This document shows positions 21,168 through 55,677 of a stretch of DNA of 64,000 bases, piece after piece. The stretch lies in contig NC_092087.1 of assembly GCF_045679555.1 (NCBI RefSeq), positions 24,621,367-24,685,366 of the forward strand. Direction: 5' to 3'. This DNA is from Salvelinus alpinus (taxonomy: Eukaryota; Chordata; Actinopteri; Salmoniformes; Salmonidae). Both the position numbers and the translations under genes were made by a program. A model generated the notes under the pieces. It was not told the DNA's origin, ran no database searches, and worked only from the letters and a program-made list of their open reading frames with translations. The stretch's first letter is position 1. Each line of letters begins with the position of its first letter.

Positions 21168-21845
21168 AACAACACAGATCTACTCTGAACCACAACACTT
21201 CACGACACCAAACAACACAGATCTACTCTGAACCACAACACCAAACACAGATCTACTCTGAACCACAACACTTCACGACACCAAACAACACAGATCTACT
21301 CTGAACCACAACACTTCACGACACCAAACAACACAGATCTACTCTGAACCACAACACTTCACGACACCAAACAACACAGATCTACAACACTTCACGACAC
21401 CAAACAACACAGATCTACTCTGAACCACAACACTTCACGACACCAAACAACACAGATCTACTCTGAACCACAACACTTCACGACACCAAACAACACAGAT
21501 CTACTCTGAACCACAACACCAAACAACACAGATCTACTCTGAACCACAACACTTCACGACACCAAACAACACAGATCTACTCTGAACCACAACACCAAAC
21601 AACACAGATCTACTCTGAACCACAACACTTCACGACACCAAACAACACAGATCTACTCTGAACCACAACACCAAACAACACAGATCTACTCTGAACCACA
21701 ACACTTCACGACACCAAACAACACAGATCTACTCTGAACCACAACACCAAACAACACAGATCTACTCTGAACCACAACACTTCACGACACCAAACAACAC
21801 AGATCTACTCTGAACCACAACACTTCACGACACCAAACAACACAA
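21168..21845. repeat. minisatellite with alternating 43- and 33-bp units
   Basis: All units share ACACAGATCTACTCTGAACC. Long units (43 bp) have an extra 10-bp ACTTCACGAC block; short ones (33 bp) lack it. After an initial run of long units the right half alternates long-short at least four times, making a 76-bp higher-order unit. One long unit near 21361-21400 has a small deletion. No coding potential. Confidence 0.95.
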
Positions 21846-22989: not shown

Positions 22990-23535
22990 GACACGTTTCG
23001 ATGTTTTTACTTTTTACCCCCTTTTCTCCCCAATGGTAGTTATAGTCTTGTCCCATCGCTGCAACTCTGCTACAGACTCGGGAGAGGCGAAGGTCAAGAG
23101 CCACGCATCCTCGGAAACACGACCCTGCCAAGCTGCACTGCTTCTTGACACACTGGTCGCTTAATCCGGAAGCCAGCTGCACCAATGTGTTGGAGGAAAC
23201 CGTCCAGCTGGTGCCCGAAGTCAGCCTGCAGGCGCCCGAAGTCAGCCTGCAGGCGCCCGAAGTCAGCCTGCAGGCGCCCGAAGTCAGCCTGCAGGCGCCC
23301 GAAGTCAGCCTGCAGGCGCCACAAGGAGGTCCACCACAAGGAGTCGAAAGAGCGCAATGGGACAATGCCAAACCCTCTCCTTACCCGGACACCGCTGGAC
23401 CAATTGTGCGCCACCTCATGGGTCTCCCAGTCACGGTCGGCTGTGACATAGCCTCGGATCAAACCCGGGTCTGTAGTGACGTTTCAAGCACTGCAATGCA
23501 GTGCCTTAGGCCGCTGCGCCACTCTGGAGGCCAGA
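22990..23535 (-). mobile_element. tRNA-derived SINE, reverse, with an internal 21-bp expansion
   Basis: In reverse the head reads GGCCTCCAGAGTGGCGCAGC (about 23512-23531) with tRNA-like boxes, followed by GACCGTGACTGGGAGACCCA, and it ends in TTGGGGAGAAAAGGGGGTAA near 23015-23035. This is a common teleost/salmonid long SINE. A 21-bp motif is repeated five times within it (23213-23318), which normal copies of this SINE, as I recall them, lack. Confidence 0.8.
23213..23318. repeat. five tandem 21-bp units in a SINE
   Basis: The unit GCGCCCGAAGTCAGCCTGCA(G) is repeated about five times almost without change. Because 21 is a multiple of 3, all frames stay open and read heptapeptides such as APEVSLQ, which explains the 180-codon open frame here. 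It is not a gene. Confidence 0.95.
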
Positions 23536-29007: not shown

Positions 29008-29185
29008 TCAGACGGTCTTGAAGAGTCCAGACATGATGTAATCTGTGTGGTTTCCATCGATGAGGCCGTTGCCGTTGCTATGGATGAACCAGCAGGGGAC
29101 GTTCTCTCCATTCTTCACATCCCAGCGGAAGTCCCTTTGCCAGCCTCTGCAGAAAAAAAGCAGGGAGGAGAGACAATGATGAGAT

Positions 29186-29242
<57 letters not shown>

Positions 29243-32200
29243 GACATCACAGTACCTTGTCACTGTAAGCTCCTGCCCCTTCACTAGCATGGTGGCATCT
29301 GGTTTCTCTGGCTCCTCCCCTGGGCGCATGTTTCTCACCTCAAACTGCACCCCATGGTAAAACTGACCTGTATGGGGATAATAAAATACATTCTTATTGA
29401 TCAGATATACAGACATTTTTCCAAATATACTGCAGTAAAACTCCAGCCAGCAACGCAGATTTCATCTGGCCCTGCCAATGACAGGTTATCCTTTGGAGCC
29501 CCCTGGTGATACCTAGCAGGCCGTGGACGCTGGGGGAGAGGAGGTGGCTTTCCTACCTAGCAGGCCGTGGACGCTGGGGGAGAAGAGGTGGCTTTCCTAC
29601 CTAGCAGGCCATAGACGCTGGGGGAGAGGAGCTGGCTTTCCTACCTAGCAGGCCATGGACGCTGGGGGAGAAGAGGTGGCTTTCCTACCTAGCAGGCCGT
29701 GGACGCTGGGGGAGAAGAGGTGGCTTTCCTACCTAGCAGGCCGTGGACGCTGGGGGAGAAGAGGTGGCTTTCCTACCTAGCAGGCCGTGGACGCTGGGGG
29801 AGAGGAGCTGGCTTTCCTACCTAGCAGGCCGTGGACGCTGGGGGAGAAGAGGTGGCTTTCCTACCTAGCAGACCGTGGACGCTGTGGGAGAGGAGCTGGC
29901 TTTCCTACCTAGCAGGCCGTGGACGCTGGGGGAGAAGAGGTGGCTTTCCTACCTAGCAGACCGTGGACGCTGTGGGAGAGGAGCTGGCTTTCCTACCTAG
30001 CAGGCCGTGGACGCTGGGGGAGAAGAGGTGGCTTTCCTACCTACCAGGCCGTGGACGCTGGGGAAGAAGAGGTGGCTTTCCTACCTAGCAGGCCATGGAC
30101 GCTGGGGGAGAGGAGGTGGCTTTCCTACCTAGCAGGCCATGGACGCTAGGGGGGAAGAGGTGGCTTTCCTACCTAGCAGGCCGTGGATGCTGGGGGAGAA
30201 GAGGTGGCTTTCCTACCTAGCAGGCCGTGGACGCTGGGGGAGAGGAGGTGGCTGTCCAGGGTATAGAAGCCCAGATAGTCCTGGTGGTAGGGGTGCTGTT
30301 TCCACACCTTGTGTAGGATGACCACAAACCGGACCGAGTCCCTGAGGGTGACAGTCAACCTGCGGTCTTTGGTCACCTCCAGGTCTAAACTGTAGGAGGG
30401 GAGAGAGATGGAGGTAGTTTAACCAGGAGGACAGGGAGATAGGATGAAACATCAGATTCCCTTACAACCTTCTGTGGTAGTAGGAGTAGCAAGGGAGGTT
30501 GCATTAAATCCAGAAACTCTGGTCTCTCTATATACAGTGTATAAATAGGAGTTATATGGAAGCCAGAACAGTAAAATGGGAATAAGTGGGTCATTCCAAA
30601 AATTCGGTGCCAAAGAAAACTTCAGATGTCACCTAATTTTTACATCCTCCCATAAAGAGCACTTGTTCGACTTCATAAAACAACACTTTTTCCCATGTCA
30701 AGAGGGAGTAAAAAATGACTATACTACCAAATAAAGTAACAGGGTTGACAAATTCTTAAATCAACCATAAATCAACTTGTGAAGGGGGAATGGAAGCTTG
30801 TTGCATGCAACAGGGAGTGGCAATTGAGTGCAAGCTTCACAATTTATTTGATTGTTAAAACATTTGTAGCCTGTCTATCTATGGGTAGCAGGGTTGACGT
30901 GTTATGCTCGAACCGCTCAGTTTTTCACCACAAAACACTAGAAAATGTCCAAAAAGAGTAGAACCAGATCCCCTGACTTTGCACTATGATTTGACTGTTA
31001 GATGTTCAATATTTATTTGTAAAAAAATATTTATAAAGGAATAGTTTCACCGTATTAAACAGAGTTCAGTTCACATAACAGGGTTGACCTTAAAATGAGG
31101 GACAGATGTAAATGAATCACTAAACACATGAAATAAATTATCATATTCAGAAATGACTTTGTCAAAGCAACAAAATAACTAGGCCTTTGCAATGATTAAA
31201 TGTTGGGGTTACGTGGGTTAAAATCTTCCCTAGAAGTAGTGGGGGCACGGAGGGACATGTCATAATGCAGAATTAAACCAAGTCTTTATTCATATTAAAA
31301 ACAGATTTATTGAATTCTCCATGTTGTCTATATTAAAGGCCACTTCATTTAATATAACAGGCTTTTCAAATTCAATATTGGTGCAGAATTTATACTTTCT
31401 ACTCAAATGGACGCAAAAGGCACTCTTCTTAGAACGACCCAGGTAAGGGTGGACTTACTTGGCTCCCTTGAGAGAGGCGGTGTCAGACCAGAGGAGTTTG
31501 GCCTGCTTGCCATCCTGGGACACAGTGATGTCATGAGTGGTCACCTCCAGTCTCACCCCCAGCCCCTGGTGAACAATGCCAAAGCGACCAAAGTAGGTGT
31601 TCACTTTGCCATCAGGGGCCACCTTCTTATCCCCAATGGTCTGGCCATTGACCAAAATACCTGTAAGACAGATTGAGGCAAGCTGTGTTATGTTTGAATG
31701 GTTCATAGTGTAATTTTGATATTTGTTGTCTATTTTATGAAACAAGTGTCATGGTTTGGTTTCATGCCTTGTAACATTCAAAGACACATTACTGTCAAAG
31801 GTTGGTCAATTTCAAATAATGAATCATTTCTACAGCTATAACTATGTACTTTAATAAAGTGTAATTTCTGTAGTCATTGAGTGGTTAATATTTACCTGCC
31901 AGCTGGTCTCTCACTAGGTTGAAGATGGTACCAGGCCTATCGTCTATGTTGAAGCACAGTGCATCCTTCTGCTCTGGCAACTCAATCATGAAATGAGGGT
32001 CCCCATCCACTGCAGAGTCAACAACAGATTGTTCCAGTTGTAAAATTTGATTTGGTTGAGGCTAAGCCCATTCAAACTTCTGGATCACTCACTGTAGTCC
32101 TAATGTGGCATGACAGCATGGTGGACATTGAAAATACTAAATACGGTTCATTTAGTCTTTAAGACACTGTTGTTTTTATTCTTTATTTGGGCAGTTAACT

Positions 32201-38083: not shown

Positions 38084-38766
38084 ATTGACGAGATCCTGAG
38101 GCCCATTGTCGTGTCATTCATCTACGCCATCACCTCATCTTTCAGCATGATAATGCACGTTCCCATGTAACAAGGATCTGTACACAATTCCTGGAAGCTG
38201 AAAATGTGCCAGTTCTTCCAGTTCTTCTTGGCCTGCATACTCACCAGACATGTCACCCATTGAGTATATTCGGGATGCTCTGGATTGACGTGTACGACAG
38301 TGTTCTGATAGCTGTACTTCTGTACAAAGTATCAGATTGCCCTATGTTGTCATATAGTGTCGAATTTGGGTACTGTAGCTTTTAATTTGCTAACTTCCTG
38401 TTAATAAAGAGATCAAAATAATGTTAATAAAGAGATCAATTTGAGCGACAACAGACAGACAAGCCATACTTTTCCGCCTTACTAGGCCTTGGTTAAAGAT
38501 AAGTCTGAGTAGTTTGCGTTATTAGAAAAGGCTTTTGCTAATTCAAATTGTGTTTATAGAATATTTACTTTTTTACATGTTTATTCTAGTTTTTTAAGTT
38601 CCGATGAAGCTAAGCTGATTGCGCCAACTTTCTCTCATTCACTTAACATTGTGTGTTAGCATGCTAGCTATCGTTTCGTGACGGAAGTTAGCTTCTTTGG
38701 TTTCTGGATGTATCTAGCTATTTTAAGTGTTCCGATATCTCTTGTGAGAGAGCTAAAGGATAGTTG

Positions 38767-41584
38767 TTAATACGGACCACCCATCCCGGATCATTCTCAT
38801 CAGAAACGCTGACTAGCATAGCCTAGCCTAGCGCCACAGGGATATCATATAATATAATTTCATGAAATCACAAGTCCAATACAGCAAATGAAAGATAAAC
38901 ATCTTGTGAATCCAGCCAACATGTCCGATTTTTAAAATGTTTTACAGCAAAAACACAACATATATTTATGTTAGCTCACCACCATATCCCAAAACACAAC
39001 GCCATTTTTTCACCGCAAAGATAGCTTTCACAAAACCCACAAATAGAGATAAAATTAATCACTAACCTTTGAACAACTTCATCAGATGACAGTCTTATGA
39101 CATCATGTTATACAATACATTTGTTTTGTTCGAAAATTTGCATATGTATAGCTACAAATCGTGGTTTTACATTGCCGCCATGGTCACAAATGGCACCAAA
39201 ATGTCCGGAGAAATTTTAGACAGCCATGTAATCTAACAGAAAAACTCATCATAAACTTTGCTGAAAAATACATGTTGCACAGACTCGGTCTCAACCTTTA
39301 AGTCTTTACTGAAGACTTATCTCTTCAGTAGGTCATATGATTGAGTGTAGTCTGGCCCAGGAGTGTGAAGGTGAACGGAAAGGCTCTGGAGCAACGAACC
39401 GCCCTTGCTGTCTCTGCCTGGCCGGTTCCCCTCTCTCCACTGGGATTCTCTGCCTCTAACCCTATTACAGGGGCTGAGTCACTGGCTTACTGGTGCTCTT
39501 TCATGCCGTCCCTGGGAGGGGTGCGTCACTTGAGTGGGTTGAGTTACTGATGTGATCTTCCTGTCTGGGTTGGCGCCCCCCCTTGGTTTGTGCTGTGGTG
39601 GAGATCTTTGTGGGCTATACTCGGCCTTGTCTCAGGATTGTAAGTTGGTGGTTGAAGATATCCCTCTAGTGGTGTGGGGGCTGTGCTTTGGCAAAGTGGG
39701 TGGGGTTATATCCTTCCTGTTTGGCCCTGTCCGGGGGTTTCTTCTGATGGGGCCACAGTGTCTCCTGACCCCTCCTGTCTCAGCCTCCAGTATTTATGCT
39801 GCAGTAGTTTATGTGTCGGGGGGCTAGGGTCAGTTGGTTATACCTGGAGTACTTCTCCTATCTTATCCAGTGTCCTGTGTGAATTTAAGTATGCTCTCTC
39901 TAATTCTCTCGTTCTCTCTTTCTTTCTCTCTCTCGGAGAACCTGAGCCCTAGGACCATACGTCACGGCAAACCGGGCATGATGACTCCTTGCTGTCCCCA
40001 GTCCGCCTGGCCTTGCTGCTATTCCAGTTTCAGCTGTTCTGCCTGCGGTTATGGAACCCCTACCTGTCCCAGACCTGCTGTTTTCAACTCTTAATGATCG
40101 GCTATGAAAAGCCAACTGATATTTATTCCTGATTATTATTTGACCATGCTTGTCATTTATGAACATTTAGAAAATCTTGGCTCTCTCTAATTCTCTCCTT
40201 CTCTCTTTCTTTCTCTCTCTCGGAGGACCTGAGCCCTAGGACCATACGTCACGGCAAACCGGGCATGATGACTCCTTGCTGTCCCCAGTCCGCCTGGCCT
40301 TGCTGCTATTCCAGTTTCAGCTGTTCTGCCTGCGGTTATGGAACCCCTACCTGTCCCAGACCTGCTGTTTTCAACTCTTAATGATCGGCTATGAAAAGCC
40401 AACTGAAAATTATTCATGATTATTATTTGACCATGCTTGTCACTTATGAATATTTTGAACATCTTGGCATAGTTCTGTTATAATCTCCACCCGGCACAGC
40501 CAGAAGAGGACTGGCCACCCCTCATAGCCTGGTTCCTCTCTAGGTTTCTTCCTAGGTTTTGGCCTTTCTAGGGAGTTTTTCCTAGCCACCGTGCTTCTAC
40601 ACCTGCATTGCTTGCTGTTTGGGGTTTTAGGCTGGGTTTCTGTACAGCACTTCGAGATATTAGCTGATGTACGAAGGGCTATATAAAATAAACTTGATTT
40701 GATTTGATAATTAAAGATACACTGGTTCTTAATGCAACCGCTGTGTTAGATTTAAAAAAATAACTTTAGTAAAAAGCACAGCATGCAATAATCTGAGACA
40801 GCGCTCAGCCATTCTCCGCCATGTTGGAGTCAAAAGAGTCAACAAAAATACGAAATAACATCATAAATATTCCCTTACCTTTGATGAACTTTCATCAGAA
40901 TGCAGCGCCAGGAATCCTAGTTCCACAATAAATCGTTGTTTTGTTTTAGAATGTCCATTTCTTCTGTCGAATTAGCAACTTTGGCTAGCATGTGTAGCTC
41001 ACGTGTCCATGAAGATTTTTACGCACTTCAAAAAGTGATAATAAAAGTCGAATAAACTGGTCAAACTCAGTTGAGAATCAATCTTCAGGATGTTTTTCTC
41101 ATATATATCCAATAACATCCCAGACAGAGCATTTCTTCGTGTCTACCTAAGGCATTGCAGACAAAGATATGACAAACCAAAGTGCGTAGCCAAATACTGC
41201 CAATATGGCTGACCTCTCACTCCAACGACTCATCTGGTCCCACAGAAGGCTAGACACTTCATTCCACGTTCTACTGCCTGTTGACATCTAGTGGAAGGCG
41301 TATGAAGTGCATACAGATCCATAAATACAAGACAATTGAATAGGCAATGCCTTTCACAGAGACCCATTTCAGAATTTTCACTTCCTGTTTGGAAGTTTGC
41401 TTGCCAAATGAGTTCTGTTTTACTCACAGATATAATTCAAACAGTTTTAGAAACTTCAGAGTGTTTTCTATCCAATAGTAAAAGTAATATGCATATCATA
41501 TGATCTAGGACAGAGTACGAGGCCATTTAAATTGGGCACAATTTTATCCAGAAGTGAAGTTAACCCCTATTTCCAAGAGGTTAA
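38767..41584. mobile_element. piggyBac-like non-autonomous element between TTAA sites
   Basis: The segment lies between TTAA at 38767-38770 and TTAA at 41581-41584, the target site of piggyBac elements. Its interior matches, from memory, a very common salmonid non-coding repeat. It is interrupted by a LINE 3' end at about 39285-40712. No transposase frame is inside. Confidence 0.55.
39285..40712 (+). mobile_element. LINE 3' end with an internal 286-bp tandem duplication
   Basis: It begins at the end of a LINE reading frame (AAGTCTTTACTGAAGACTTA; Leu-Lys-Thr-Tyr-Leu-Phe-Ser type C-terminus ending near 39342). It continues as about 1.3 kb of 3' untranslated sequence ending AAGGGCTATATAAAATAAAC and TTGATTTGATTTGAT. 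The block 39895-40181 is repeated at 40182-40466. The tail is the same as at 5745-5865 and 10990-11252. The open frames inside are non-coding. Confidence 0.7.
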
Positions 41585-42023
41585 GCTATATGGACACTGA
41601 TTGTGTGAATGTATATAGTGACTTTTTCTCATGCATTTTCTCCTTTCTGTATGTGTTACAGTTTGAGGGCAGAACAGACAGCATGTCCCAGTTCCCGCCA
41701 ATATCCAGCAATTTTGCACATTCATTGAAGAGGAGTGGGACAACATTCCACAGGCCACAATCAACAGCCAGCACAACTCTATGCTAAGGAGATGTGTCCT
41801 GCTGCATGAGGCAAATGGTGGTCACACCAGTAACTGACAGGCTTTCTGATCCACATCCCTACCTTCTTTTAAGGTATCTGTGACCAACAGATGCATATCT
41901 GTTTTCCCCGTCATGTGAAATCCATAGATTAGGGCCAAATTGACTGATGTCCTTATATGAACTGTAACTCAGTAAACTCTTTGACATTTTTTCATGTTGC
42001 GTTTATATTTTTGTTCAGCATAA

Positions 42024-43347
42024 AACTGCATATCTAAGGCTCTGGTTTGTTCAAGAAGTGAGGGTAACGGTCAACACGATATCTGCTATCCACTTTTAAT
42101 TATTTTGGGTATAGGGGAGTGTCACTTATTTTTCAAGCGTTCAGGGAGGGTTTAGGTCAAATATATTTTGCTGAAGGGAGGGCGATTTCATTTCAGAGGT
42201 CATTTCATAACCCTTATAAATAACGTTCACTCCCTTATTTTAACTTGTAGACTGACAGATATGTGATATCTGCATATGTTTGGCAGCCCAGCTTACCTTC
42301 TTTACAATCTATCCATGGATATGCCTCCTGTTTTTACTTCCACATAATGTTTGTCCATACATCAACACATGGTAGGTAGCAGGCCTATTGGTGCCATTGT
42401 GGTGGTACCAGCTGCGGGGAGAGGTGCTGTCCTGTCATCTGAGGGAACCGAGGTAGCTGAGGTTGTGGTGGGATTGGTAGCTGAAGACATGTTGGGATCG
42501 TTAGCTGGGGTGTTGGCATCCGATAGCTGAGGTGGTGTGATCGGGAGTTGTTAGTGTTGCGGAGATCGGCCCTGGACCCGGGGACTGGGAGGGGCCTGTC
42601 AAGGTCGTGGAGGGGGATGCCATGCTAGAAGGAGACCAGAGAGAGAGACCAGAATTCCCAAATTGGAATTCCGCGTTGGATGACCGTTCAAATAGAGTTC
42701 CCAGTTATTTTGAACACGGCATATGTCAACAATGGACTAATGAATCAAATACCAAAATATAGTTTTTGGGTGGAGTATTCCTTTAAGTTCCTACCACAAT
42801 GTACCAGACAAATGTCCTTCTATAAAGATGAGGCGGCGATGATGATTGTAGAAGCTGTAGATGATGAGCCTCTGTAGTTGGCGAAGTAGTTTGTAGAAGA
42901 TGGCAGGTGCCACCTGTGCCGTCGAATCAAATGGGGTTTTACAAAAACCAGTCTGCACAGAACGTACAGAATAATCAATTATATAGTCTTACTTTTATCA
43001 ACAAAGTTTCAGTAACAACAATTTTTTACATATGTGGTCTCAAAAGGATTTGCAGATTTTTCAAAACCCACGTTCTTCTCCAATGCGACAAGACAACTAC
43101 AGGCAGGCGCCATCTCTCTCACACAAAGAAATGCACATGTAACTATAGCAAATGCAAAATGTTCTAAAATCTAAATGATCTTCACTCTTGAAAGCATACA
43201 CGCTTACGTCAATATCCTGACTGGTTTTAGATATCCTGACTCGTAAATATCATGTACACGTTAGTTATTCATCAGTTGGTGGCAGCCAGTGGGGAGGTGT
43301 GCTGCCACTGACCAGAGAGCTAGGCTAGGTTTCTAGTACAGACAGTG
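42024..43347. other. no gene; partly repeat-derived
   Basis: A G-rich patch is at 42385-42640. Around 42645-42790 lie motifs (AGAGTTCCCAGTTATTTTGAAC) related to the foldback element at 45598-45856. I see no exon. Open frames here are short and unlike any family. Confidence 0.4.
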
Positions 43348-43627
43348 GCTTCATGAGGTAGTCACCTGGAATTATCAGGAACTCCTTGTTAAAAGTTCAT
43401 TTGTGGAATTTCTTTCCTTCTTAATGTGTTTGAGCCAATGAGTTGTGTTATGACAAGGTAGGGATGGTATACAGAAGATAGGCCTATTTGGTAAAAGACC
43501 AAGTCCATATTATGGCAAGAACAGCTCAAACAAGCAGAGAAACAACAGTCCATCATTACTTTAAGACATTAAGTTCAGTCAATCCGGAACATTTCAAGAA
43601 CAGTCACAAAAACCATCATGCACTACG

Positions 43628-44455
43628 ATGAAAATGGCTCTCATGAGGACCGCCAAAGGAATGGAAGACCCAGAGTTACCTCGGCTGCAGAGGATAAGTT
43701 CATTACAGTTACCAGCCTCAGAAGTTGCAGCCCAAATAAATGCTTCACAGAGTTCAAGTAACAGACACATCTCAACATCCACTGTTCAGAGGAGACTGTG
43801 TGAATCATGCCTTCCTGGTCGAATTGCTGCAAATAAACCACTACTAAAGGACACCAATAATAAGAAGAGACTTGCTTGGGCCAAGAAACACGAGCAATGG
43901 ACATTAGACTGGTTGAAATCTGTCCTTTGGTCTGATGAGACCAAATTTGAGATTTTTTGGTTCCAACCGCTGTGTCTTTGTGAGACGTAGCGTAGGTGAA
44001 CGGATGATCTCTGCATGTGTGGTTCCCACCGTGAAGCATGGAGGAGGTGGTATGATGGTGTGGGGGTGCTTTGCTGGTGACACTGTCAGTGATTTATTTA
44101 GAATTCAAGGCACACTTAACCAGCATGGCTACCACAGCATTCTACAGCGATACACCATCCTATCTGGTTTGAGCTTAGTGGGAGTATCATTTGTTTTTCA
44201 ACAGGACAATTACCCAGCACACCTCCATGCTGTGTAAGGGCTATTTGACCAAGGAGAGTGATGGAGTGCTGCATCAGATGACCTGGCCTCCACAATAACC
44301 CGACCACAACCCAATTGAGATGGTTTGTGATGAGTTGTACCGCAGAGTGAAGTAAAAGAAGCCAACAAGTACTCAGCATATGTAGGAACTCCTTCACGAC
44401 TGTTGGAAAAGCATTCCAGGTTAAGCTGGTTGAGAGAATGCCAAGAGTCTGGCAA
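43628..44455 (+). pseudogene. Tc1 transposase pseudogene (family 4, copy 2)
   Basis: A frame at 43628-43990 has the helix-turn-helix region and [10 protein letters not shown] with the first catalytic Asp, then shifts. The next frame (43935-44237) carries [20 protein letters not shown] and FVFQQDNYPAHLHAV with the second catalytic Asp, then a stop. The third region is degraded (ACCCGACCACAACCCAATTG at 44299-44318). Two frameshifts and stops make it dead. Confidence 0.85.
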
Positions 44456-44539
44456 TCAAGGCAAAGGGTGGCTACTTTGAAAAATCTCAAATTATATTTT
44501 GATTCGTTTAATCCTTTTTTGGTTACTACATGATTCCAT

Positions 44540-44745
44540 ATGGGGCTCCCGAGTGGTGCAGCGGTCAAAGGCACTGCATCTCAGTGCTAGAGGCATCACT
44601 ACAGACCCTGGTTCGATTCCAGGCTGTATCCCAGGGAGTCCCATAGGGCCGCGCGCAATTCGTCCAGTGTCGTCCGGTTTAGGCCGTCATTGTAAATTTG
44701 AATTTGTTCTTAACTGACTTGCCTAGTTAAATTAAGGTAAAAAAG
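44540..44745 (+). mobile_element. salmonid tRNA-derived SINE in Tc1 copy 2
   Basis: Head GGGCTCCCGAGTGGTGCAGC, B-box-like GGTTCGATTCC, tail TTCTTAACTGACTTGCCTAG then A-rich. It is inserted in the 3' flank of the Tc1 copy (after GATTCCATAT), a different place from the SINE in copy 1. Confidence 0.9.
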
Positions 44746-44879
44746 AAAATCATAGTTTTGATGTCTTCACTATTATTCTACAATGTAGAAAATAGCAAAA
44801 ATATAGAAGAACTCTTGAATGAGTAGGTGTCCAAATTTGACAGGTACTGTATATGTATTTATAAAAAATGTTGCCTGTT

Positions 44880-46620
44880 ATTTTGGCATTAATATGTGTC
44901 AAGTATCAGTTTGCAAACAATAAAGCTGCATACAAACTTGGTCTCTTTTTAGCTTTCTTGAGTAAAGCAGCTCCAAAATGCAGGAGTTTCAGCCTAGCTC
45001 AGTGCAATCTGTGAAGGTGGGGCAGCCAGCGGAAAATACGGAGCGTAGGGGTTGGTAATGCCCTCTAGTTGCGCCGTGATTGGCTCAGTGTTCTTTCACT
45101 CATGGGGACACTACGTCACCACAAAATCTACAGGTAAAGCTAGAAAATTCAAGCCCCTTGAGTGCTGCCATAGAGTTACATTAGAAGTGCCCATCCGAGA
45201 AGGCTCAAGGTCATTTGACACAGAGAAAACGACGTCAAATCACATATCTACAGTAGCTTTAATTGGACTGATCATGTCAACATACTTTAAAAATCTTAGC
45301 TAGCAGTCATCATCATGAATAAAGTTGACAATCTACTGGCAAATCCTCTTCACACGAAGAGAAATAATGAAGAGATATTATAGATAAAACTTATCGGTGC
45401 TCATCAGAAATTGGATATAAACATTACACAAGTTGGAAATCCCAAATTCAACAATGAGGGGTTTGGAAGAAATCAGTGGCATTGCAAAGCAATCACTAGC
45501 CTGCTATTCAGCGGAGTGGGTCTGTTGTTCAAGTCTGGGTTTAAGGGTCTCTTTTCCAAGCTTAAAGGATAAACATTCAACATTGGCCATGCATGACTTC
45601 TGCCGCATTCAAAACAACTGGAAACTTGGAACTGGGAAATCTCAGACTTCAGTGAGTTCAAGACAACATGGAACTTTAAAGAAAAAAAACGAGCTCCGAC
45701 CGGGAAAATAAGTTTTGAACAGTCATCCAACTCAGATTTGCAAGTCGGGAACTCAGGTCTCTTTTTAGAGCTCCGACCTGAAGATCACTGACGCCATCAT
45801 GTTTCAAGCTTGTTTTTTTCCCCGAGTTCCCAGTTGTCTTGAAAGCACCATAAATCTAGAGAATGCCAGACTTTAATGAGAAAGTTTGATGACAAAATTT
45901 GCCCACGAAGGACCACTGTGCCACCTTCCTGTTCAAGTGAGCACAGCACAAGGTGAGTCCAAAAATGTCTTGTATGCTGATGCATAAATTATGTAATATT
46001 CCAGGGAGATATGTACACTGTAGCTAAGAAGGTAACATTAAGTGTATGTTGTGTAGTAAGCTGTTAGTAGCCCATGTGCCTCACCCTAAAAAGTTGGTCC
46101 CTTTTCCCCTCATAACTTAGCCTACTGTTCTGACTTGGTGGTGCACATGTAGCCTATAGGCTGTTTTAGAGAAATGTAATCATCAAGTATTGTAAGAGCT
46201 TTCATTGTCTGCTTATATGCCCCCTCTATCCTACGGTTCTAACTTGGTGTACAGGGAGAATACTGTAAGAGCGGACCATGTTCGGAATTCTGTCACTGTA
46301 CATTGCAAAAGTACTGAACAAATGGTTATTTTGACTACGTCCATCCTAGCTCGCTCATTAATGTCTTAATCGAAATTATGGATTGCCTCTTATCCGCTCA
46401 TCGTCCCCTTATGCCATAGTTTGTACATCTCAATTGTCAGTAGAAACCACATTTGTATTAAGCAAGTCAGCCATATCCGCTATGTTTAAAACAAAAATGG
46501 TAGTAAATGAGGCTGAATTTACTGTTTTGCTGCCGGACAAGGCTCCGCTGATAGCCAGGTGTAGCTGTGGTAAGGTGTTGGGACTGCTGTTGGGACTCTG
46601 CTGTTAGGACAGACTTATGT
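44880..46620 (+). mobile_element. long salmonid non-coding repeat, unclassified
   Basis: The text from GCTCCAAAATGCAGGAGTTT through GCTCAAGGTCATTTGACACA to at least 45990 matches, from memory, a very common long salmonid repeat whose class I do not know. It includes a foldback section at 45598-45856. The right border is uncertain. No protein-coding frame of a known type. Confidence 0.5.
45598..45856. repeat. foldback segment (AACTCGG/CCGAGTT type)
   Basis: The left arm GCATTCAAAACAACTGGAAACT (near 45605-45626) is matched by CCCGAGTTCCCAGTTGTCTTGA near 45821-45842. Repeated GGAACTGGG/TCGGGAACTC words lie between. Typical of a short foldback DNA transposon. Confidence 0.65.
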
Positions 46621-47257
46621 AGGCCCTAACAGTTTGTAGACATCATTTGTCACTGTTATAGTGCAATTAATGTATTGTTTAGTGTTGTGGCCTTGCTGCC
46701 ATGCATCAAAAAGTTTTTTTGTCCCACAATTTACATGCTAAAATTGCCACTGAGTACAGAGACAGGGTAAATTCAAAATAAAATAGCTTATATTTCCTAT
46801 AAGGTTCCAACCTAAATGATCTCTTTAAGAATCAAACTTAAAATGTTCAACAAATAAATCTTGAAACCAGACCTAACGGCTCTCTCAGTCCTGTCCTCCC
46901 GCGAGGGGAAACCAGCAGCTGATAAGTGTGGTGCCTGAGTGACTAGCCAGCAACACCCTTAACAAGTCTATTTAAGTCAGCCGTGCCTGTTCATCTTCAA
47001 GCAGTGGGCCCTTTCCCAGCTGACTACATGGCTTGTGAGGGTGTGGACAATAAGTGGCCGCCCCTCACGGCGCCACACCCCTCACGGCGCCAACGGTGGC
47101 CCACCCATCCCAAGGTTTCAAGCTGATGGCTGCGTTCCATGGTGACCCCCTCGCTTGTAGTGCTGGTCGTGGTAGGAGGACTGGCCCCTGACAGCCCAAC
47201 ACAGGCATACAATTTTGTTAGCATAATGCTAACTCACCAGGGTCCGGTTTTAAATCT
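46621..47257. other. no gene recognised
   Basis: A short GC-rich direct repeat (CCCCTCACGGCGCCA, twice at 47063-47091) is the only distinctive feature. Possibly part of a larger repeat. No exon. Confidence 0.4.
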
Positions 47258-48595
47258 AAATCTTATCAAATCTTATTTGTCACATGCGCCGAATACAACA
47301 GGTGTAGACATTACAGTGAAATGCTTACAAACCCTTAACCAACAATGCAGTTAAGAAAAATACACTTAAAGTATGAAATAAAAGTAACAAATAATTAAAG
47401 AGCAGCAGTAAAATAACAATAGTAGTGAGGCTATATACAGGGGGTATTGGTACAGAGTTAATGTGCATGGGCACCGGTGAGTCAAGGTAATATTTACATG
47501 TAGGTAGAGTTATTAAAGTGACTATGTATAGATAATATAGAGAGTAGCAGCAGCGTAAAAGGGGGAGGCAATGCAAATAGTCTGGGTAACTAGCCATTTG
47601 ATCAGATGTTCAGGAGTCTTATGGCTTGGGGGTAGAAGCTGTTTAGAAGCCTCTTGGACCGAGACTTGGCGCTCCGGTACCGCTTGCCATGCGGTAGCAG
47701 AGAGAACAGTCTATGACTAGGGTGGATGGAGTCTTGGACAATTTTTAGGGACTTCCTCTTACACCGCCTGGTATAGAGGTCCTGGATGGCAGGAAGCTTG
47801 GCCCCGGAGATGTACTGGGCCGTACACACTACCCTCTGTAGTGCCTTGCGGTCAGAGGCCGAGCAGTTGCCATACCAGGCAGTGATGCAACCCGTCAGGA
47901 TGCTCTCGATGGTGCAGCTGTAGAACTTTTTGAGGATCTGAGGTCCCATGCCAAATCTTTTCAGTCTCCTTAGGGGGAATAGGTTTTGTTGTGCCCTCTT
48001 CACGGCTGTCTTGGTGTGCTTGGACCATGTTAGTTTGCTGGTGATGTGGTCACCAAGGAACTTGAAGCTCTCAACCTGCTCCACTACAGCCCAGTCAATG
48101 AGAATGGGGGCATGCTCGGTCCTCTTTTTCCTGTAGTCCACAATCATCTCCTTTGTCTTGATCACGTTGAGGGAGAGGTTGTTGTCCTGGCACCACACAG
48201 TCAGGTGTCGGTGATTAGGCCTACCACTGTTGTGTCATCGGCAAACTTAATGATTGGTGTTGGAGTCGTGCCTGACCATGAGGTCATGAGTGAACAGGGA
48301 GTACAGGAGGGGACTGTGCACACACCACAGAGGGGCCCCAGTGTTGAAGATCAGCGTTGCGGATGTGTTGTTAGGGGGGCGGCCCGTCAGGACATCCAGG
48401 ACCAGTTGCAGAGGGAGGTGTTTAGTCCCAGGGTCATTAGCTTAGTGATGTGCTTGAGGGCACTATGGTGTTGAACGTTGAGCTATAGTCTATGAATAGC
48501 ATTCTCACATAGGTGTTCCTTTTGTCCAGGTGTGAAAGGGCAGTGTGGATTGCAAAAGAGATTGCATCATCTGTGGATCTGTTGGGGCGGTATGC
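47258..48595 (-). mobile_element. L2-like LINE, 5'-truncated
   Basis: Reverse-strand LINE. The 3' untranslated end (47258-47600) has CTTATTTGTCACATGCGCCG and CAGTGAAATGCTTACAAACC; the C-terminal coding part follows at 47602-48198; further coding sequence with frameshifts continues to about 48595. A 3'-end fragment of the same LINE is at 24382-24690. The upstream part (endonuclease and most of the polymerase) is absent. Confidence 0.85.
47602..48198 (-). pseudogene. LINE reverse transcriptase C-terminal region
   Basis: An open frame of 198 codons reads NNLSLNVIKTKEMIVDYRKK, then VESFKFLGDHITSKLTWSKH, then [20 protein letters not shown]. This is the end of the polymerase ORF of L2/CR1-like LINEs downstream of the catalytic YxDD motif. 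The catalytic part itself is broken or missing upstream (frame changes at 48200-48595), so it is a fossil despite the clean frame. Confidence 0.85.
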
Positions 48596-48705
48596 CCGGT
48601 TTCCCAAAGGCAGCTTAAGGTTAAATTCATGGTTAGAACCACAGGACCCTATGGATCTAAAGATGAACTTAGCCTTAAGATGCTTTTGAGAAACCGGGCC
48701 CAGGA
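48592..48705. mobile_element. short foldback MITE
   Basis: The ends GCCCGGTTTCCCAAAGGCAG (from 48593) and CTTTTGAGAAACCGGGCC (to 48702) are inverted repeats with AGCTTAAGG/CCTTAAG just inside. About 110 bp, no coding. It sits at the broken end of the LINE fragment. Confidence 0.75.
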
Positions 48706-49078
48706 TTCTCTCTTCATAAACATCAAAGGAAAAAAGGTCTCAATTCCCATCTGGCTCAGCTCACTGATTATCTAAACACTTGATTCTTCTGCAGTAGTAA
48801 AAATATACTCCACAACTTTGTTTATAATAAGTTATCAACGTTCAATATTGCTATGATTCTTTTAGGTTTCTTTCTGTGTAACAGTTCACAGGTCGTGGAA
48901 GCTCTCTCCAAAGGCAAGAGGGTAAGAAAGCGAGATCCGAGCCACAGCAAAAGATGTTCAGACTCTAGTGGTCGCCAACAAACTCCCAACCCATAGAATT
49001 AGTGTAAAGAAGTTAGGGGCTGTCTTGTTTTGTAAAAATGTTAGGGAATGTGATAAGAGAATTAAGTTCTCATGTTCT

Positions 49079-51680
49079 TTAACTTCTTATGGCTGCATCC
49101 CTTCTTCTCAATTTCCACCTGAAGACATACCCTAATCTAACTGCCTGTAGCTCAGGCCCAGAAGCAAGGATATGCATATTATTGGTATCATTTGAATGGA
49201 AACATTCTGAAGTTTGTGGAAATATTAATTGAATGTAGGATAATATAACACAATAGATCTGGTAGAAGAAAAGAGAAAGAAAGAGCATACGTTTTCTGTT
49301 TTTGTATTGTTGTAGCATCATCTTTTACATGTACTAGAATAGCCAAACAGTCAGATAGGATGCTGGGGACAATTTAGATGGAGAACACAAGAGGACAACT
49401 GTAGTTGTGCAAAGTTTTAGACTGATAACTTCAGGAATGGGTGAGCTACATGACATTTAGCATGAAGTCACCCAGGTGTCCCACACAAGTTGCCCAAATG
49501 TACCCAAGTGGCCGAATTGGTGAAATGATATATAACTATATACAACAGTGCAAAAAACTATATACAACATATCAAAAAGCAATTATAACAACAACAAAAA
49601 AATAAAAATGTTTAAAAAATATTTGAAAAAGAAAAGATACAAAAAAAACAGGGGTAGACCCTTTGGAAGACCCTCAGTCCTCTACACAATATTTTGCTTC
49701 TGATGCCATGTCCCATAGCAGTCTATTTCTGCTGTAAAGCAGAGGCAAACCGAACAAATGGTGCAGGTGATGGGGGACTTCATGTGGCAAAGAACACAAC
49801 GACGCCTCCATGCTGTGCCCTTTTGGCCCTGAGGCACATTCATGCCTGCAGTTATTTACTTTGGCATGTGAACAACACTGGTGGCAGGAGTAGAGGGGGC
49901 AGAGGTAGAGGGTTGGCAGAGGTAGAGATGGCAGAGGTAGAGGGGGCAGAAGTTGATGCATCGGACTTTGCGCTATAGCCAGCAAGCTCCCGGATGAACA
50001 GCTCCCTGAAGGCTAGCTGTGAGTTGGGGGGCCGTCCACAGCTCTTCGCCATTTCCTTGTCTTGTGCAGAACATTGTAGTAACCTATCAGTGCGTCTGAT
50101 AGGTCTACACCTCCCATGTCCTTGTTGTAGTCCTTGATAGCTGCAGGAATGGGGACATTTTTGGTGGTCCATGCCCCAGTAGCGTCCTTCACACGCCTGA
50201 CGACGTGATCGCCACTGAAGGACTTGTGGATAGTGGAGCACATGACCACCTCTCTGGTATCCATCCATTTCACAAACAGCAGGCCATCTTCACTGATCCA
50301 TCGCATGGTCCCCCGCTCAGCCCGCTTAGGCATGTCGTTTACCTTTGTCTTCGGAAAGCCCACTCTGTTGGTCCGAATAGTGCCACAAGCCCACACATCC
50401 AGCTTCCTCAGGTCTGCAAACAGGGTAGGGCTTGTGTAGAAGTAGTCCACAAAAAGTTTGTAGCCCTTCCCCAGCAGTTGAAAATCTGTAATGGAGTTAT
50501 TGGAGTCATAGCTAAGTCAGTCCCTTACCGGTCGCACAAGTGTTCTTCCCCTCATAGACAAAAAAATTGCACGTGTATGCACACACACAATCAGCCAAAA
50601 CAAACAGCTTGTAACCCCATTTGGTTGGTTTGTTACGCATGTATTGTTTTAGGCCAATTCTGGCCTTTGAGGCTACCATCCTCTCATCTATGGACAAGTT
50701 CTGGGCGGGCTGAAAATGGGTCTTGCAGAACTCAACCATGCTGGCGTAGAGAGGTTTGACTTTGCAGAGCCTGTCAAACCGTGCGGTGCCTCTCCTCCTG
50801 TCATTCTCCTCATCAACTTCTGGGTCACTGATGTGAAGCGCCCGTGAGATATTTAGAAACCTTGTAGAGGACATGACAGTGGGGGGAAAGGCAGTTGATA
50901 GAGTGGGGATGTTTTCCAGTAATCCTTGAGGGTTTTTTACTTCACCAGCCCCATGTAAATGACCAGTGAAAGGTAGCAGAAAAGGTCTGACATGGAAATG
51001 GACTTCCATGCCTCTTTCTTTCCTGCTTGCTTCTTAGCCCCATATTTGTTTGTATTACACACCAGGGAATCAACAACTGACGGGGTGAAAAACAGTTGAA
51101 AAAGTTGCATGGGGCTGTATTTTGAGGTCATGTCCAGCTGAGGTCCTGGTGGCCTTTTTGGTCTGAATATTGGAGGACGTGGCTCCACATCCTCCTCCAG
51201 CACATAGTGCCATTGCCCCTCTACCTCTCTGCCAGCAGGTTCCACACTTCCCTTCCTCCGCTTCTTTGTTTGTGTCTTCACACCTCTAGATGGCCGGGCG
51301 GGGTTAGGTGTAGAGCCGGAGACAGCAGGGGTCCGGCTGGATGAACCCGCTTCAGTGGGGGATGGGCACCTTGGCACCGGGGCATCCCAGTCGGAGTATC
51401 TATCACTGTGAAAGAAAACATTAAAAAATATATTTGTTATGTATGAGCCTTGTATCATCATGTAACATAAACAGATATGTATTGTATAGAGCAGAGGGAA
51501 CACAGTCACTATGGTGAAGTGCTGTTCCGTTCAACTCCGGCCATTGTTGTGGGCCTGCCCTCCTCCCAACAGCATCCAATGGCTATTTCATATGGAAATG
51601 GGGTGGAGTGGAGCAGCAGGCGCAGTGGCCATGTGTGTGTTTGCTGTTCTACTCCATTCCATTTTAATAAAAAATGGAAA

Positions 51681-51713
<33 letters not shown>

Positions 51714-52570
51714 TCCACCCAAACACAAACACAGGTTATGGGTCATACACATACATACATACACACACACACACACACTATGAAAAGCCAATGTGTACTT
51801 TACACATTTCATCACACATTTCATTACTGATTATATTTCTATAAATTGCACAATTTAAAAAAAGATTTATAATTCAAACAACGGCATTAGCACTTACCAG
51901 TCCAGAATTATGTCCTCTCCTTGCAGAAACATCTCTTCAGTCTGAGTTAAAACTATGCTCACTCAAAGATTCTTCAAGCAAAAAATCTGTCTCACTTTCC
52001 CTATCTAGTTCTTCTATAATTTGGTGCAAATCTGTATACTTAGATATTGACTTCGCTTTTCCTGATTTATTCGCCATGATGTTTTCTATGAAATGGTTGA
52101 AAATACTCTTCACAAAATACTGCTGTGCGTAATGCGTGTGTCTGCAAAAAGTCTGATCGTCAATGGTGGAATGAAGTTCGTTACGCGTGCGTTTACTAAC
52201 AAGGGCTGGTGGTTCAACCCATAACCATCACATACTGCCGTTTACCTCAGCTCATTGGCTATCTACCAACCTAGATATCAAGAAGATCAGTGGTCATTGG
52301 GCAGAAATACAGTCAATCAACGAAACTTCGCTAATATTATTGGTGCGCAATGAGGTCATTGCTTGTTGTCTTCAAATCAGTTCCTTTCGGTCAATACGCC
52401 CCGCAAAAAGAACCATCAAGTATTGCTGTGTTACAAACATCCAGAGGATTGCAATGAAACCAACCATGACTAGATAAACAATTGTTTAGTGTGTGTAATT
52501 ACGTCGAATGCTTCGTCAAAAGTTGATAGAGACGGAATTCACGACACAAGCGGTTTACAAAATGTTTCGT
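49079..52570 (-). mobile_element. piggyBac element with transposase gene
   Basis: The left border is TTAA (49079-49082) followed by CTTCTTATGGCTGCATCCC; this end is the same as the end of the non-autonomous copy at 59355-59846. The right part, with the transposase 5' flank, is cut near 52570 by a Tc1-type fragment, and I found no TTAA there. A TA-CA microsatellite lies in the transposase intron (51680-51715). Confidence 0.8.
49687..52077 (-). pseudogene. piggyBac transposase (PGBD4-like), intron-containing, frameshifted
   Basis: Exon 1 starts MANKSGKAKSISK at 52077 and is followed by a GT donor near 51899. The second exon starts at an AG acceptor at about 51409. The long part (51408-50940) gives the acidic N-terminal region, then [11 protein letters not shown] (first Asp, 50620-50560), [14 protein letters not shown] (second Asp, about 50450) and MGGVDLSD (third Asp, about 50100). 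All three catalytic aspartates are therefore kept. The C-terminal Cys-rich finger ([10 protein letters not shown]... ending QNIV) ends at 49687. Breaks: an in-frame stop in exon 1, frameshifts near 50940 and 50500, a deletion with frameshift near 50030, and a frameshift near 49850. Recently active but dead copy. Confidence 0.85.
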
Positions 52571-53172
52571 GTTAGGCTATAAAAATGGATTTTTTTGCAC
52601 ATTTGTGGCCTGCTGGAGGTCATTTTGCAGGGCTCTGGCAGTACTCCTCCTTGCACAAAGGCGGAGGTAGCGGTCCTGCTGCTGGGTTGTTGCCCTCCTA
52701 CGGCCTCCTCCACGTCTCCTGATGTACTGGTCTGTCTCCTGGTAGCGCCTCCATGCTCTGGACACAACGCTGACAGACACAGCAAACCTTCTTGCCACAG
52801 CTCGCATTGATGTGCCATCCTGGATGAGCTGCACTACCTGAGCCACTTGTGTGGGTTGTAGACTCCGTCTCATGCTACCACTAGAGTGAGAGCACCGCCA
52901 GCATTCAAAAGTGACCAAAACATCAGCCAGGAAGCATAGGAACTGAGAAGTGGTCTGTGGTCACCACCTGCAGAATCACTCCTTTATTGGGGGTGTCTTG
53001 CTAATTGCCTATAATTTCCACCTTTTGTCTATTCCATTTGCACAACAGCATGTGAAATTTATTGTCAATCAGTGTTGCTTCCTAAGTGGACAGTTTGATT
53101 TCACAGAAGTGTGATTGACTTGGAGTTACATTGTGTTGTTTAAGTGTTCCCTTTATTTTTTTGAGCAGTGTA
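52565..53172 (-). mobile_element. Tc1-like element fragment (family 7), N-terminal half
   Basis: The right end AAGTGTTCCCTTTATTTTTT (53143-53162) with GACTTGGAGTTACATTGTGT is this family's terminal repeat. The reverse strand holds the first part of a transposase. The element stops abruptly at about 52565 against piggyBac sequence, so the catalytic half is missing. It lies about 120 bp downstream of the mustn1 last exon. Confidence 0.85.
52577..52873 (-). pseudogene. Tc1 transposase N-terminal domain (family 7), truncated
   Basis: An open reverse frame reads [20 protein letters not shown] from 52873, then [20 protein letters not shown]: a helix-turn-helix pair with a linker ([20 protein letters not shown]). 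It ends where the element is cut, with no DDE domain. The clean frame is only 99 codons, so integrity means little. Confidence 0.8.
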
Positions 53173-53294
53173 TATCAGACCATTCAATAACAGTAAGGTT
53201 TGGCTTCTTTGGTGCCATTTGCCCAGGCATCCATCTGTCCTGTCATGGCTCCAGTGCAGTGATGATAGCCACTACTCCTCCACCCTGGCTGCCT

Positions 53295-54351
53295 CTACCT
53301 GCCAAAGATGCTGGCTCCTGGGGCTTTAGGCTTCTCCAGTACAGTCTCTAGTCAATACTTCACCCCACTGAACACAGAGGGAGCCACCTTCCCCATATGC
53401 ACTGAGGATGGACAGACAAGGGCATGAGCAAAGATAGTAGTGCTTGGCACGCCCCCCTACACACAAACACAAAGATGATGAGCAATATTCACACTGTAGA
53501 CAAACTGATGTGTCTATAATCTTTAGAAGTGCTGCAGTTGTGTTGTCTTTTTCCTTCTTCCTAGTTCTCTAATCAAACATTCTTCCTCTACCCTGGGGAC
53601 AGGGACAGTAACACTAGGCCAGTAACTATACACCCTTTGTCTTAAACACTGACTGCACAAGATTCAGTCTCTGTAGGAGTGGAAACTATTTGTAACTCAC
53701 TCAGTATGCGCTCTCCTGAGCTGGGCTTGGGCCGAATACACACCAGAGTTCAGCAATAACATTGTAGAAAGTGAACCGAGCTCATGTCACTTGACTGACT
53801 TTACTCTCCCTGATATGCTCGCTGCACTATTGCCTACAACTGACCAATATCAAAAGGGTATATGCGGTCAACAATTAATATGGCAGTGATAATTACTTGT
53901 ATTTGACAACTCCCACAAGTGGAAAAAAAAAAGTTAGGCAAGTGACGTTATGCTACTATAGGTTGAGTCTGAATGCTGCTACTCACCAGTCTATCATGAC
54001 CTCATAGGTCTTACTCTTGCGCTCGCCCTTCAGCCCCAGTTTACTGCGGGCTCCTTTCAGTTCCTCCTCCATCACAGGACACTTCTTCTTTACCTCACCG
54101 GGCTATGGAGGGCTGGAGAAAGAATGGAGGTTAGACAGGGCAAAATCTCACATCTTTCAGGATTTCCCTCATCATAACCATCCCTCTGATTTGTTTCTCG
54201 ATCTTCCTATATTAAAGTAAATATAGAGGAATCCTTTACATAGGAAATAATATATGTAGATTTTGCTGTCACATCAAGAACTGGACAACAAATAGTTGAT
54301 AAAAATAGGTCAGGACAGTCGGATACAAGGACGTTTGCTTACCTGAGACAT
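53295..54351 (-). pseudogene. mustn1: mustn1 (musculoskeletal embryonic nuclear protein 1), disrupted last exon
   Basis: MUSTN1 is an approximately 80-residue nuclear protein of developing and regenerating muscle and skeleton. Exon 1 (54351-54343) codes MSQ and has donor GTAAGC. Exon 2 (54102-53987) codes PGEVKKKCPVMEEELKGARS, then KLGLKGERKSKTYEVMID, ending in phase 2 with donor GTGAGT. The third exon (53401-53295) still encodes VAPSVFSGVK, ETVLEKPKAPGASIFGR and TAG, the family C-terminus. However, the phase from exon 2 is off by one base, and an in-frame TGA sits between GVKY and LETV. As spliced here the product would leave the family frame at residue 42 and end near residue 66. This may be a decaying genome-duplication copy, an assembly error, or an exon boundary I misread. 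Confidence 0.8.
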
Positions 54352-54430
54352 TGTGTTTGGGTTTTCGTGTCTTAATCCCAGAGTTCTGGTCAGTGGAGCT
54401 GTCTGGATTGCTCCTCTCTGTCCAGTCCAT

Positions 54431-54490
54431 TATATTTATACCCTCAGATCCCCAGGGAGATAATCTGTTATTGACCCTGGGATTGAGTCA
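54431..54490 (-). promoter_or_regulatory. mustn1 promoter: TATA box and AP-1 site
   Basis: On the gene strand TATAAATATA is at 54440-54431, about 80 bp upstream of the ATG. A full AP-1 site TGAGTCA (palindromic type) is at 54484-54490, about 45 bp further upstream. Mammalian Mustn1 is reported to be controlled by AP-1, so the site is in a sensible place. Motif-level evidence only. Confidence 0.6.
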
Positions 54491-54682
54491 GTGGACCCTC
54501 ACCCTCCTCTCTCTGTCCATTGTCAGTGTGTATTATTAGACTGACATGAGGGATTATGCAGCTGGAACAGGTCTTTCCTCATTTAGGATGTGGTTGCAAC
54601 GAACTGCTGAGTGAGAGACAACTCATAGCCCTTACAACATTCCACTAGCTGTGATTTCAAAGTACTCTGGAAGCTACACCAC

Positions 54683-54753
54683 TCCCTGGCAGTCTAGTGG
54701 TTAGGATTCAGCACTTTCACCGCAGCAGCCCAGATTTTATTAGGCCTCTGAAT
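54683..54753 (+). pseudogene. tRNA-Glu-like sequence 1 (degraded)
   Basis: It begins TCCCTGGCAGTCTAGTGGTT, the start of eukaryotic tRNA-Glu, with an intact D-arm/A-box. The anticodon loop reads CTTTCAC (anticodon TTC). The T arm is degraded (AGATTTTATTAGG) and the 3' acceptor strand does not pair. A pseudogene. It lies about 330 bp upstream of the mustn1 ATG. Confidence 0.7.
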
Positions 54754-55197
54754 GCATATTAACTGGCAGAACACGTCAGCTGATGAACACCTTCCCCATG
54801 TTACTACTAACCCCAAAATAGCTCTACTCCCTACTGCCCAATCAAGAGTTCACCTCTCCCATCAAATTAAACCTGAGGTCAAAATATTTTCCTGAATGGA
54901 TTATCTAAAGGTTTAGGGATTTTGCAAACATAACACTTGCAGTCATAACTTTGACATAATGGTTCCGAGTAAGACTTGACTCAAAGGGGCCAGACCATAC
55001 ATACTGTATCACAGGGAGACTAGTGAATCAGCCTTTCTGTTTGAGAGGCCATCGCTTGCCTGCCAGCATGTCTGTGTGTAGTTAATAAGTGAGTAAGGAG
55101 TCAAAAGGTGTTTGTCCATCAATAAAAATTGTCCTCGAGTCAGTTTGTATGCTTCAAAAGATAGTCTTGTGTGTATAATTAGGGGATCTATTTGCAG

Positions 55198-55367
55198 CAG
55201 TGGAGGCTGGTGGGAGGTGTTATAGGAGGACAGTCTCATTGTAATGGCTGGAATGGAGTAAATGGAACAGAGTCAAACACATGGTTTCCATGTTTGATAC
55301 CGTTCCATTTATTCCAGCAATTCCAGTGAGCCCGTCCTCCTATAGCTCTTCCCAACAGCCTCCTCTG
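55198..55367. mobile_element. 170-bp foldback hAT-type MITE
   Basis: The ends CAGTGGAGGCTGGTGGGAGG and ACAGCCTCCTCTG are inverted, with internal complementary arms (GGCTGGAATGGAGTAAATGG against CCATTTATTCCAGCAATTCC). The flanking 8-mers ATTTGCAG (55190-55197) and ATTTACAG (55368-55375) match at 7 of 8 positions. A common salmonid MITE. Confidence 0.88.
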
Positions 55368-55602
55368 ATTTACAGGTACTTGGCAATATTCTCAGAGTCA
55401 GTGAACTCTATGGGGAGAAATGGGTCCTCACTTCCCTACATGCCTCACTGCACCTGTTACTGAACTGTTTACTGACAGCCCACTCTGCCACTGTGGAAAT
55501 GGCACCCTAGTGGCAGTCTAGAGCATAACAGAGACCTGTGATCTCAAATTCCCCCCCACATTCCAGGAGCCTTCTTAACACTAGCATTCTTTACCCTGAC
55601 AT

Positions 55603-55676
55603 CTCCCTGGGGGCCTAGTGGTTAAGATTTGGTGCGCTCACCGAGCAGCAGCCAGGGTTTGATTCCTGGCCAGGGA
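55603..55676 (+). pseudogene. tRNA-Glu-like sequence 2
   Basis: The acceptor stem is perfect: TCCCTGG (55603-55609) pairs with CCAGGGA (55670-55676). The B-box reads GGTTTGATTCC and a TTTT run follows at about 55682. The anticodon loop is CGCTCAC: anticodon CTC is kept, but U33 is replaced by G and the anticodon stem is mostly unpaired. Probably a pseudogene, though the outer fold survives. Confidence 0.7.
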
Positions 55677-55677
55677 A

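Follow-up and report, generated by a model that had tools for sequence, protein, structure and literature searches.

The stretch of DNA analysed here, called the window, comprises 64,000 nucleotides of contig NC_092087.1 from Salvelinus alpinus and carries on its minus strand a gene for a blood protein, an inter-alpha-trypsin inhibitor heavy chain (ITIH). Two of the three translated pieces of the window matched the Pfam families ITI_HC_C (2.2e-74) and VIT (2.7e-8), and the third matched no Pfam family. A VWA-like motif is located at 35152 and a VIT motif at 36394. The Pfam matches agree with the itih gene named in a preliminary description of this DNA. No other ITIH 3' end scored above chance level when the window was searched by tblastn with the ITIH C-terminus, and a search of solved structures with this C-terminus gave 0 matches up to E 10. 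The exon numbers 19 to 22 serve as labels only, ‘exon 20’ following the numbering of the preliminary description. The features are as follows.

31459..31660, minus strand: exon 19 (start approximate)
between exons 19 and 20, minus strand: intron 19, 1069 nt
30217..30389, minus strand: exon 20, 173 nt, predicted from the reading frame and Pfam ITI_HC_C; its last 41 nt lie in unit 1 of the array
29510..30257, minus strand: tandem array of 17 units, each exactly 44 bp long (TRF and unit listing)
30257..30214, minus strand: unit 1, the first unit, which straddles the exon end
30211..30219, minus strand: true donor TAG/GTAGGA (written TAG|GTAGGA below), inferred to be the one used; its phase fits exon 21
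29513..30216, minus strand: true donor through last decoy, with 16 decoy donors (15 TAG|GTAGGA, the last TAG|GTATCA)
29368..30216, minus strand: intron 20, 849 nt, which carries the array
29256..29367, minus strand: exon 21, 112 nt
29008..29146, minus strand: exon 22, the last coding exon, its coding part as far as TGA

The 44-bp array is real and consists of 17 units arranged head-to-tail on the minus strand (30257..29510), with a mean pairwise identity of 94.2%. TRF over the window reported it at 29510-30257 with 17.0 copies, 93% matches, 0% indels and a score of 1314, in agreement with the tandem array containing the exon-end donor that had been described. The earlier span (29508..30230) and number of units (about 16) needed correction, although 16 units do follow the true exon end. 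Eleven distinct sequences were found among the 17 units, and units 1 and 17 differ at a single site. Elsewhere in the window, the unit sequence gave only matches of 9-13 bases (E of at least 1.7).

Unit 1 consists of the last 41 coding bases of the ITIH exon followed by GTA, the first three bases of the intron. The 17 coding bases originally assigned to the unit were thus too few. The remaining 16 units are copies of the exon end inside the following intron, and the intronic part of the array measures 707 nt. The pyrimidine run and CCCCCAG that resemble an acceptor belong to the ITIH coding sequence that was duplicated. In all 17 window units the 17-nt segment follows an AG (CAG in 16, TAG in one), as had been noted, but the exact CCCCCAG was counted in only 13 of the 17 in the unit listing. 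CTAGGTA is present in every window unit but the fifth, which has GTAGGTA. The donor reads TAG|GTAGGA in 16 units and TAG|GTATCA in unit 17, so that the GTAGGA attributed to every unit is absent from the last. The position given for the true donor was correct, with the last exon base at 30217 and the GT starting at 30216.

Several other repeats were observed in the window. A perfect dinucleotide run at 29188-29240, (CA) on the gene strand with 26.5 copies, starts in the next intron (109 nt), 16 nt past the end of exon 21, so that two successive introns have repeats near their donors. At 21168-21844 lies a large minisatellite whose periods are mixed (43, 76 and 119 bp). Five perfect 21-bp repeats at 23213-23320 (score 216, 100% matches) form an open frame of RLQADFG repeats on the minus strand, and a 287-bp unit at 39893-40468 occurs as two tandem copies at 96%, both of which contain an ORF of some 90 aa.

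A DNA search of the source genome (2.37 Gb, 928 contigs), the counts of which are lower bounds, located the array sequence in the window itself and in at least one further place, on a contig designated C12. The comparison with a duplicate-genome copy proposed in the preliminary description could therefore be made: such a copy is present on C12, and at the same exon end it carries an 11-unit array in which ten units measure 44 bp and one 41 bp. The protein end encoded by the C12 exons is that of the window ITIH gene. Identity between the two copies is 93% for the part of exon 20 ahead of the array and 92% for exon 21, and it is 79% across 117 aligned bases of the intron past the array. The array intron of the C12 copy is 558 nt long. 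Both arrays end in GGTA followed by YCACCAGGG, a shared right boundary. An alignment of intron 19 between the copies (47% identity) was set aside because the length of the duplicate intron had been guessed. The numbers of 17 and 11 units refer to two gene copies and not to alleles.

When the window was compared with 66 kb of C12, 40 of the 51 same-strand matches listed (the best 51 of 65) lay within 5 kb of one diagonal, running from 4961 to 58535, seven of these being shifted matches inside the array; the other 11 lay further off (all counted by eye, among the matches listed). Among the same matches, colinearity was broken at window positions 38088-56000, where blocks are shifted by some −9 kb or +16 kb, and the diagonal was regained near 56080. 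Since both copies carry the array at the same exon end in largely colinear regions, the array is probably older than the split between them. The size of the genome, together with the colinearity and divergence of the two regions, would be consistent with the salmonid whole-genome duplication. Alternatively, gene conversion after the copies arose could make the array look older than it is. In a tree of the 44-bp units, which was weakly resolved and read without support values, the units fall largely by array.

The second array also bears on the possibility that the window array was mis-assembled or falsely expanded. Tandem arrays are often mis-sized and a single assembly was examined, but a diverged array at the same exon end on C12, together with the 11 distinct units in the window, makes an artefact extremely unlikely. 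The doubt about assembly concerns the copy number and not the existence of the array.

By its anatomy, as far as sequence can tell, the ITIH array belongs with the amphioxus ‘mirages’ and the human ABCA7 VNTR. The mirages are minisatellite-like repeats in Adh3, the globins BflGb6 and BflGb9 and TnC, with similar repeats in PGBD5; they run in tandem across an exon-intron boundary, their units contain splice signals (AG/GT), and they are said to leave regular splicing undisturbed (PMC3087553, PMC3902484). The ITIH repeat likewise spans the boundary, unit 1 holding both exonic and intronic bases, and its units carry a splice signal, TAG|GTA being present in 17/17 window units and 11/11 C12 units. 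According to these sources, the globin units measure about 150-160 bp, in 6 and 3 copies in two haplotypes, and the Adh3 units 10-72 bp. The ITIH array differs in its 44-bp unit, its 17 and 11 copies, the exonic origin of 41 of 44 bases, its occurrence in a vertebrate and its presence in both gene copies.

The VNTR in intron 18 of human ABCA7 has a 25-bp unit; the true donor GT starts the repeat, the units carry copies of the donor, and use of the next donor causes a frameshift and premature stop (PMC5954066). Retention of one unit is given there as 2 ± 1%, independent of VNTR length, and longer VNTRs go with more skipping of the following exon. The ITIH array also has its true donor in the first unit and donor copies in the later ones, with a premature stop predicted when a later donor is used. 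The differences are that the ABCA7 repeats start at GT and come with RNA and population data, whereas the ITIH unit is almost all exon and is known from sequence. The model of Rogers, in which introns are gained by tandem duplication of a segment with AGGT, offers a further comparison (PMC3443670, PMC4974935). The duplicated exonic segment of ITIH does contain AGGT, but it lies at the edge of an existing intron, and neighbouring copies would yield introns of just 44 nt. The preliminary description knew of few cases in which the unit of a VNTR is an exon-intron border; few they are, but precedents exist in amphioxus and, with RNA data, in human ABCA7. No paper on the ITIH array was present among the matches listed in a literature search that left most subscription journals outside its scope. 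Also set aside were the intron repeats of sea bream MSTN-2, not a donor array in the parts of that report covered (PMC3045353), and reports on DDX3Y (PMC3039753) and earthworm metallothionein (PMC12783039), which concern a different phenomenon.

The arrangement of the units raises the question of whether each acts as an acceptor, a 17-nt micro-exon and a donor, some being spliced in as frameshifting (poison) micro-exons. The AG after the pyrimidine run in every window unit speaks for this, as does the TAG at which every micro-exon would end. Against it, the AG is copied coding sequence and is gone from 8 of the 11 C12 units, so that an acceptor AG is not shared by both copies, and the 707 nt of intronic array in the window contain no TNA triplet and therefore lack a consensus branch point. 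In intron 20, branch-like yTnAy motifs were found only at 29439, 29404 and 29385, all past the array. On C12, the two intronic units that keep the AG lie 27 and 71 nt past donor 1 and the first TNA is found only at 111 nt; non-consensus sites aside, no branch motif precedes the surviving AGs. Loss of the AG in C12 and the lack of TNA in the window array led us to reject micro-exons as a conserved function, and their use in any form is very unlikely. While TAG|GTA is kept in 28/28 units of the two arrays, the AG is not; the donors persist and the micro-exons do not. That such products would be out of frame, as proposed earlier, is supported, 0 of the micro-exon products translated keeping the frame; micro-exons as a conserved property are not.

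The C12 units without the AG (positions 3664-4144 of locus L003) have changed to CATCG. Five of these units read CTCAT, which is branch-like, shortly before the next TAG|GT, and this points toward extra splicing; as read from its sequence, CTCAT could permit recursive splicing at TAG|GT. Further AGs remain in the C12 units, in GGACAG and CTAG.

Over 81 nt around the splice site, 3-8 positions distinguish each of donors 2-16 from donor 1, which bears out the earlier description of many near-identical donors. Being nearly identical over the U1 site and its flanks, the donors must be chosen by position. The non-terminal donors would pair equally with U1, and local sequence would barely separate donor 1 from the decoys. 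Exon definition over the 173-nt exon would then select donor 1, the nearest to the acceptor of the exon. Where minigenes under exon definition contained two identical donors, all five constructs used the upstream one exclusively (PMC9225289). The same study states that exon definition holds for flanking introns longer than about 250 nt, that weakened donors in larger exon constructs lead to exon skipping, and that about 60% of human events, with no strength filter, favour the downstream donor. Judged by this limit, intron definition by the decoys, another earlier proposal, is unlikely, the introns measuring 1069, 849 and, on C12, 558 nt. The first donor is thus probably the only one used among these rows of near-identical sites, and the suggestion that the array is neutral since the first donor wins is probable in the light of the minigenes.

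Rare use of a later donor would expose the in-frame TAG at positions −3 to −1 of the second donor and would lead to nonsense-mediated decay (NMD). Upon translation, all alternative donors gave a premature stop, 16/16 in the window and 10/10 on C12, as did 16/16 single micro-exons in the window. The window products of alternative donors and single micro-exons end at the TAG of a donor, at least 112 nt before the last junction, and the 10 alternative-donor products of C12 do likewise. Stops more than about 50 nt before the last junction generally elicit NMD, and these products, which lie beyond that distance, are therefore predicted NMD substrates. The protein end was kept by 0 of the 16 alternative donors, 16 single micro-exons, 136 longer inserts, 120 micro-exon pairs and 560 triples translated from the window, nor was it kept on retention of intron 20. 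Premature poly(A) signals that U1 might shield, AATAAA or ATTAAA, are absent from intron 20. For the protein, the array is probably mostly neutral.

By analogy with ABCA7, an effect of the array on splicing is possible, and the one-unit retention there leads us to expect some leakage in the ITIH array too. Were leakage appreciable, array length could act through NMD to adjust how much the gene yields, like a dimmer that depends on length. The premature stop in every later-donor product translated would suit such a role, as would the correlation of ABCA7 VNTR length with lower expression and exon skipping (PMC5954066). The one-unit retention in ABCA7 is, however, itself unchanged by VNTR length, and upstream donors win under exon definition in the minigene study (PMC9225289); a dimmer is quite unlikely.

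The explanation that we favour, with a probability of about 0.7, is an old minisatellite of the mirage type, in which one 44-bp duplication before the split of the gene copies made the true donor stronger, exon definition selects donor 1, NMD clears the leakage and the protein is left mostly unaffected. In the founding event, one 44-bp segment that starts 41 nt inside the exon and runs to the third base of the intron would have been duplicated in tandem, before the two copies split. The founding segment would have read GGACA...CTAGGTA, and its duplication would have joined GTA to the exon's own GGACA, giving GTAGGA and turning a weaker donor, TAG|GTAYCA, into the stronger TAG|GTAGGA. Later unequal exchange or slippage would have led to 17 units in the window and 11 on C12, with the terminal donors GTATCA and GTACCA preserving the original donor; this ancestral donor is derived from the ends of the arrays and not from an outgroup. 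GGACA is found in 10 of the 11 C12 units and in the exonic unit 1, as against GGAAA in window units 2-17, so that the C is likely the older state. Pairing with U1 yields −9.2 kcal/mol for GTAGGA, as against −5.7 and −5.6 for the two terminal donors, and a frequency table scores GTAGGA at 7.15 and GTATCA at 2.92. With this stronger U1 pairing, the first duplication would have improved the true donor.

Neutrality of the decoys has to be weighed against their retention by selection in both copies, either as a U1-docking ladder reinforcing exon definition or as a reserve of heirs to the first position. While the rest of the unit drifted and the neighbouring AG was lost, the U1-pairing sequence GTAGGA remained letter-perfect in 26/26 non-terminal units of the two copies. 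Over the 28 units, 0 of 9 donor sites vary as compared with 17 of 35 others (P 0.0066 raw, 0.011 base-stratified). For single arrays the values are weaker, with P 0.040 in the window (0.16 among non-C sites) and 0.054 on C12, and a clean run of nine sites anywhere has a P of 0.11-0.14. The donor invariance, with P about 0.01, or about 0.1 with look-elsewhere, is suggestive. Moreover, the units may be homogenised, and leaky decoys should be harmful and so not be kept. The lack of donor variation hints at constraint over neutrality, against our favoured explanation; selection on the decoys is nevertheless unlikely. Should it be true, a U1-docking ladder or a reserve of heirs would have outlived the duplication of its gene.

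The locus provides a natural test of how the spliceosome chooses, with 16 donors identical over the U1 site and nearly alike for 40 nt on each side, so that position is almost the sole difference among them. The in-frame TAG of the decoys makes any leakage easily recognised once NMD is blocked, and the gene copies with 17 and 11 units form an internal comparison of length. If the proposed origin is true, fishes without the salmonid duplication should have a single copy of TAG|GTAYCACCAGGG, and fishes within it should have arrays in both copies. If related fishes agree, the locus would show that minisatellites at coding borders can survive a large-scale duplication and that a donor can be strengthened by a tandem duplication from the very start of the array.
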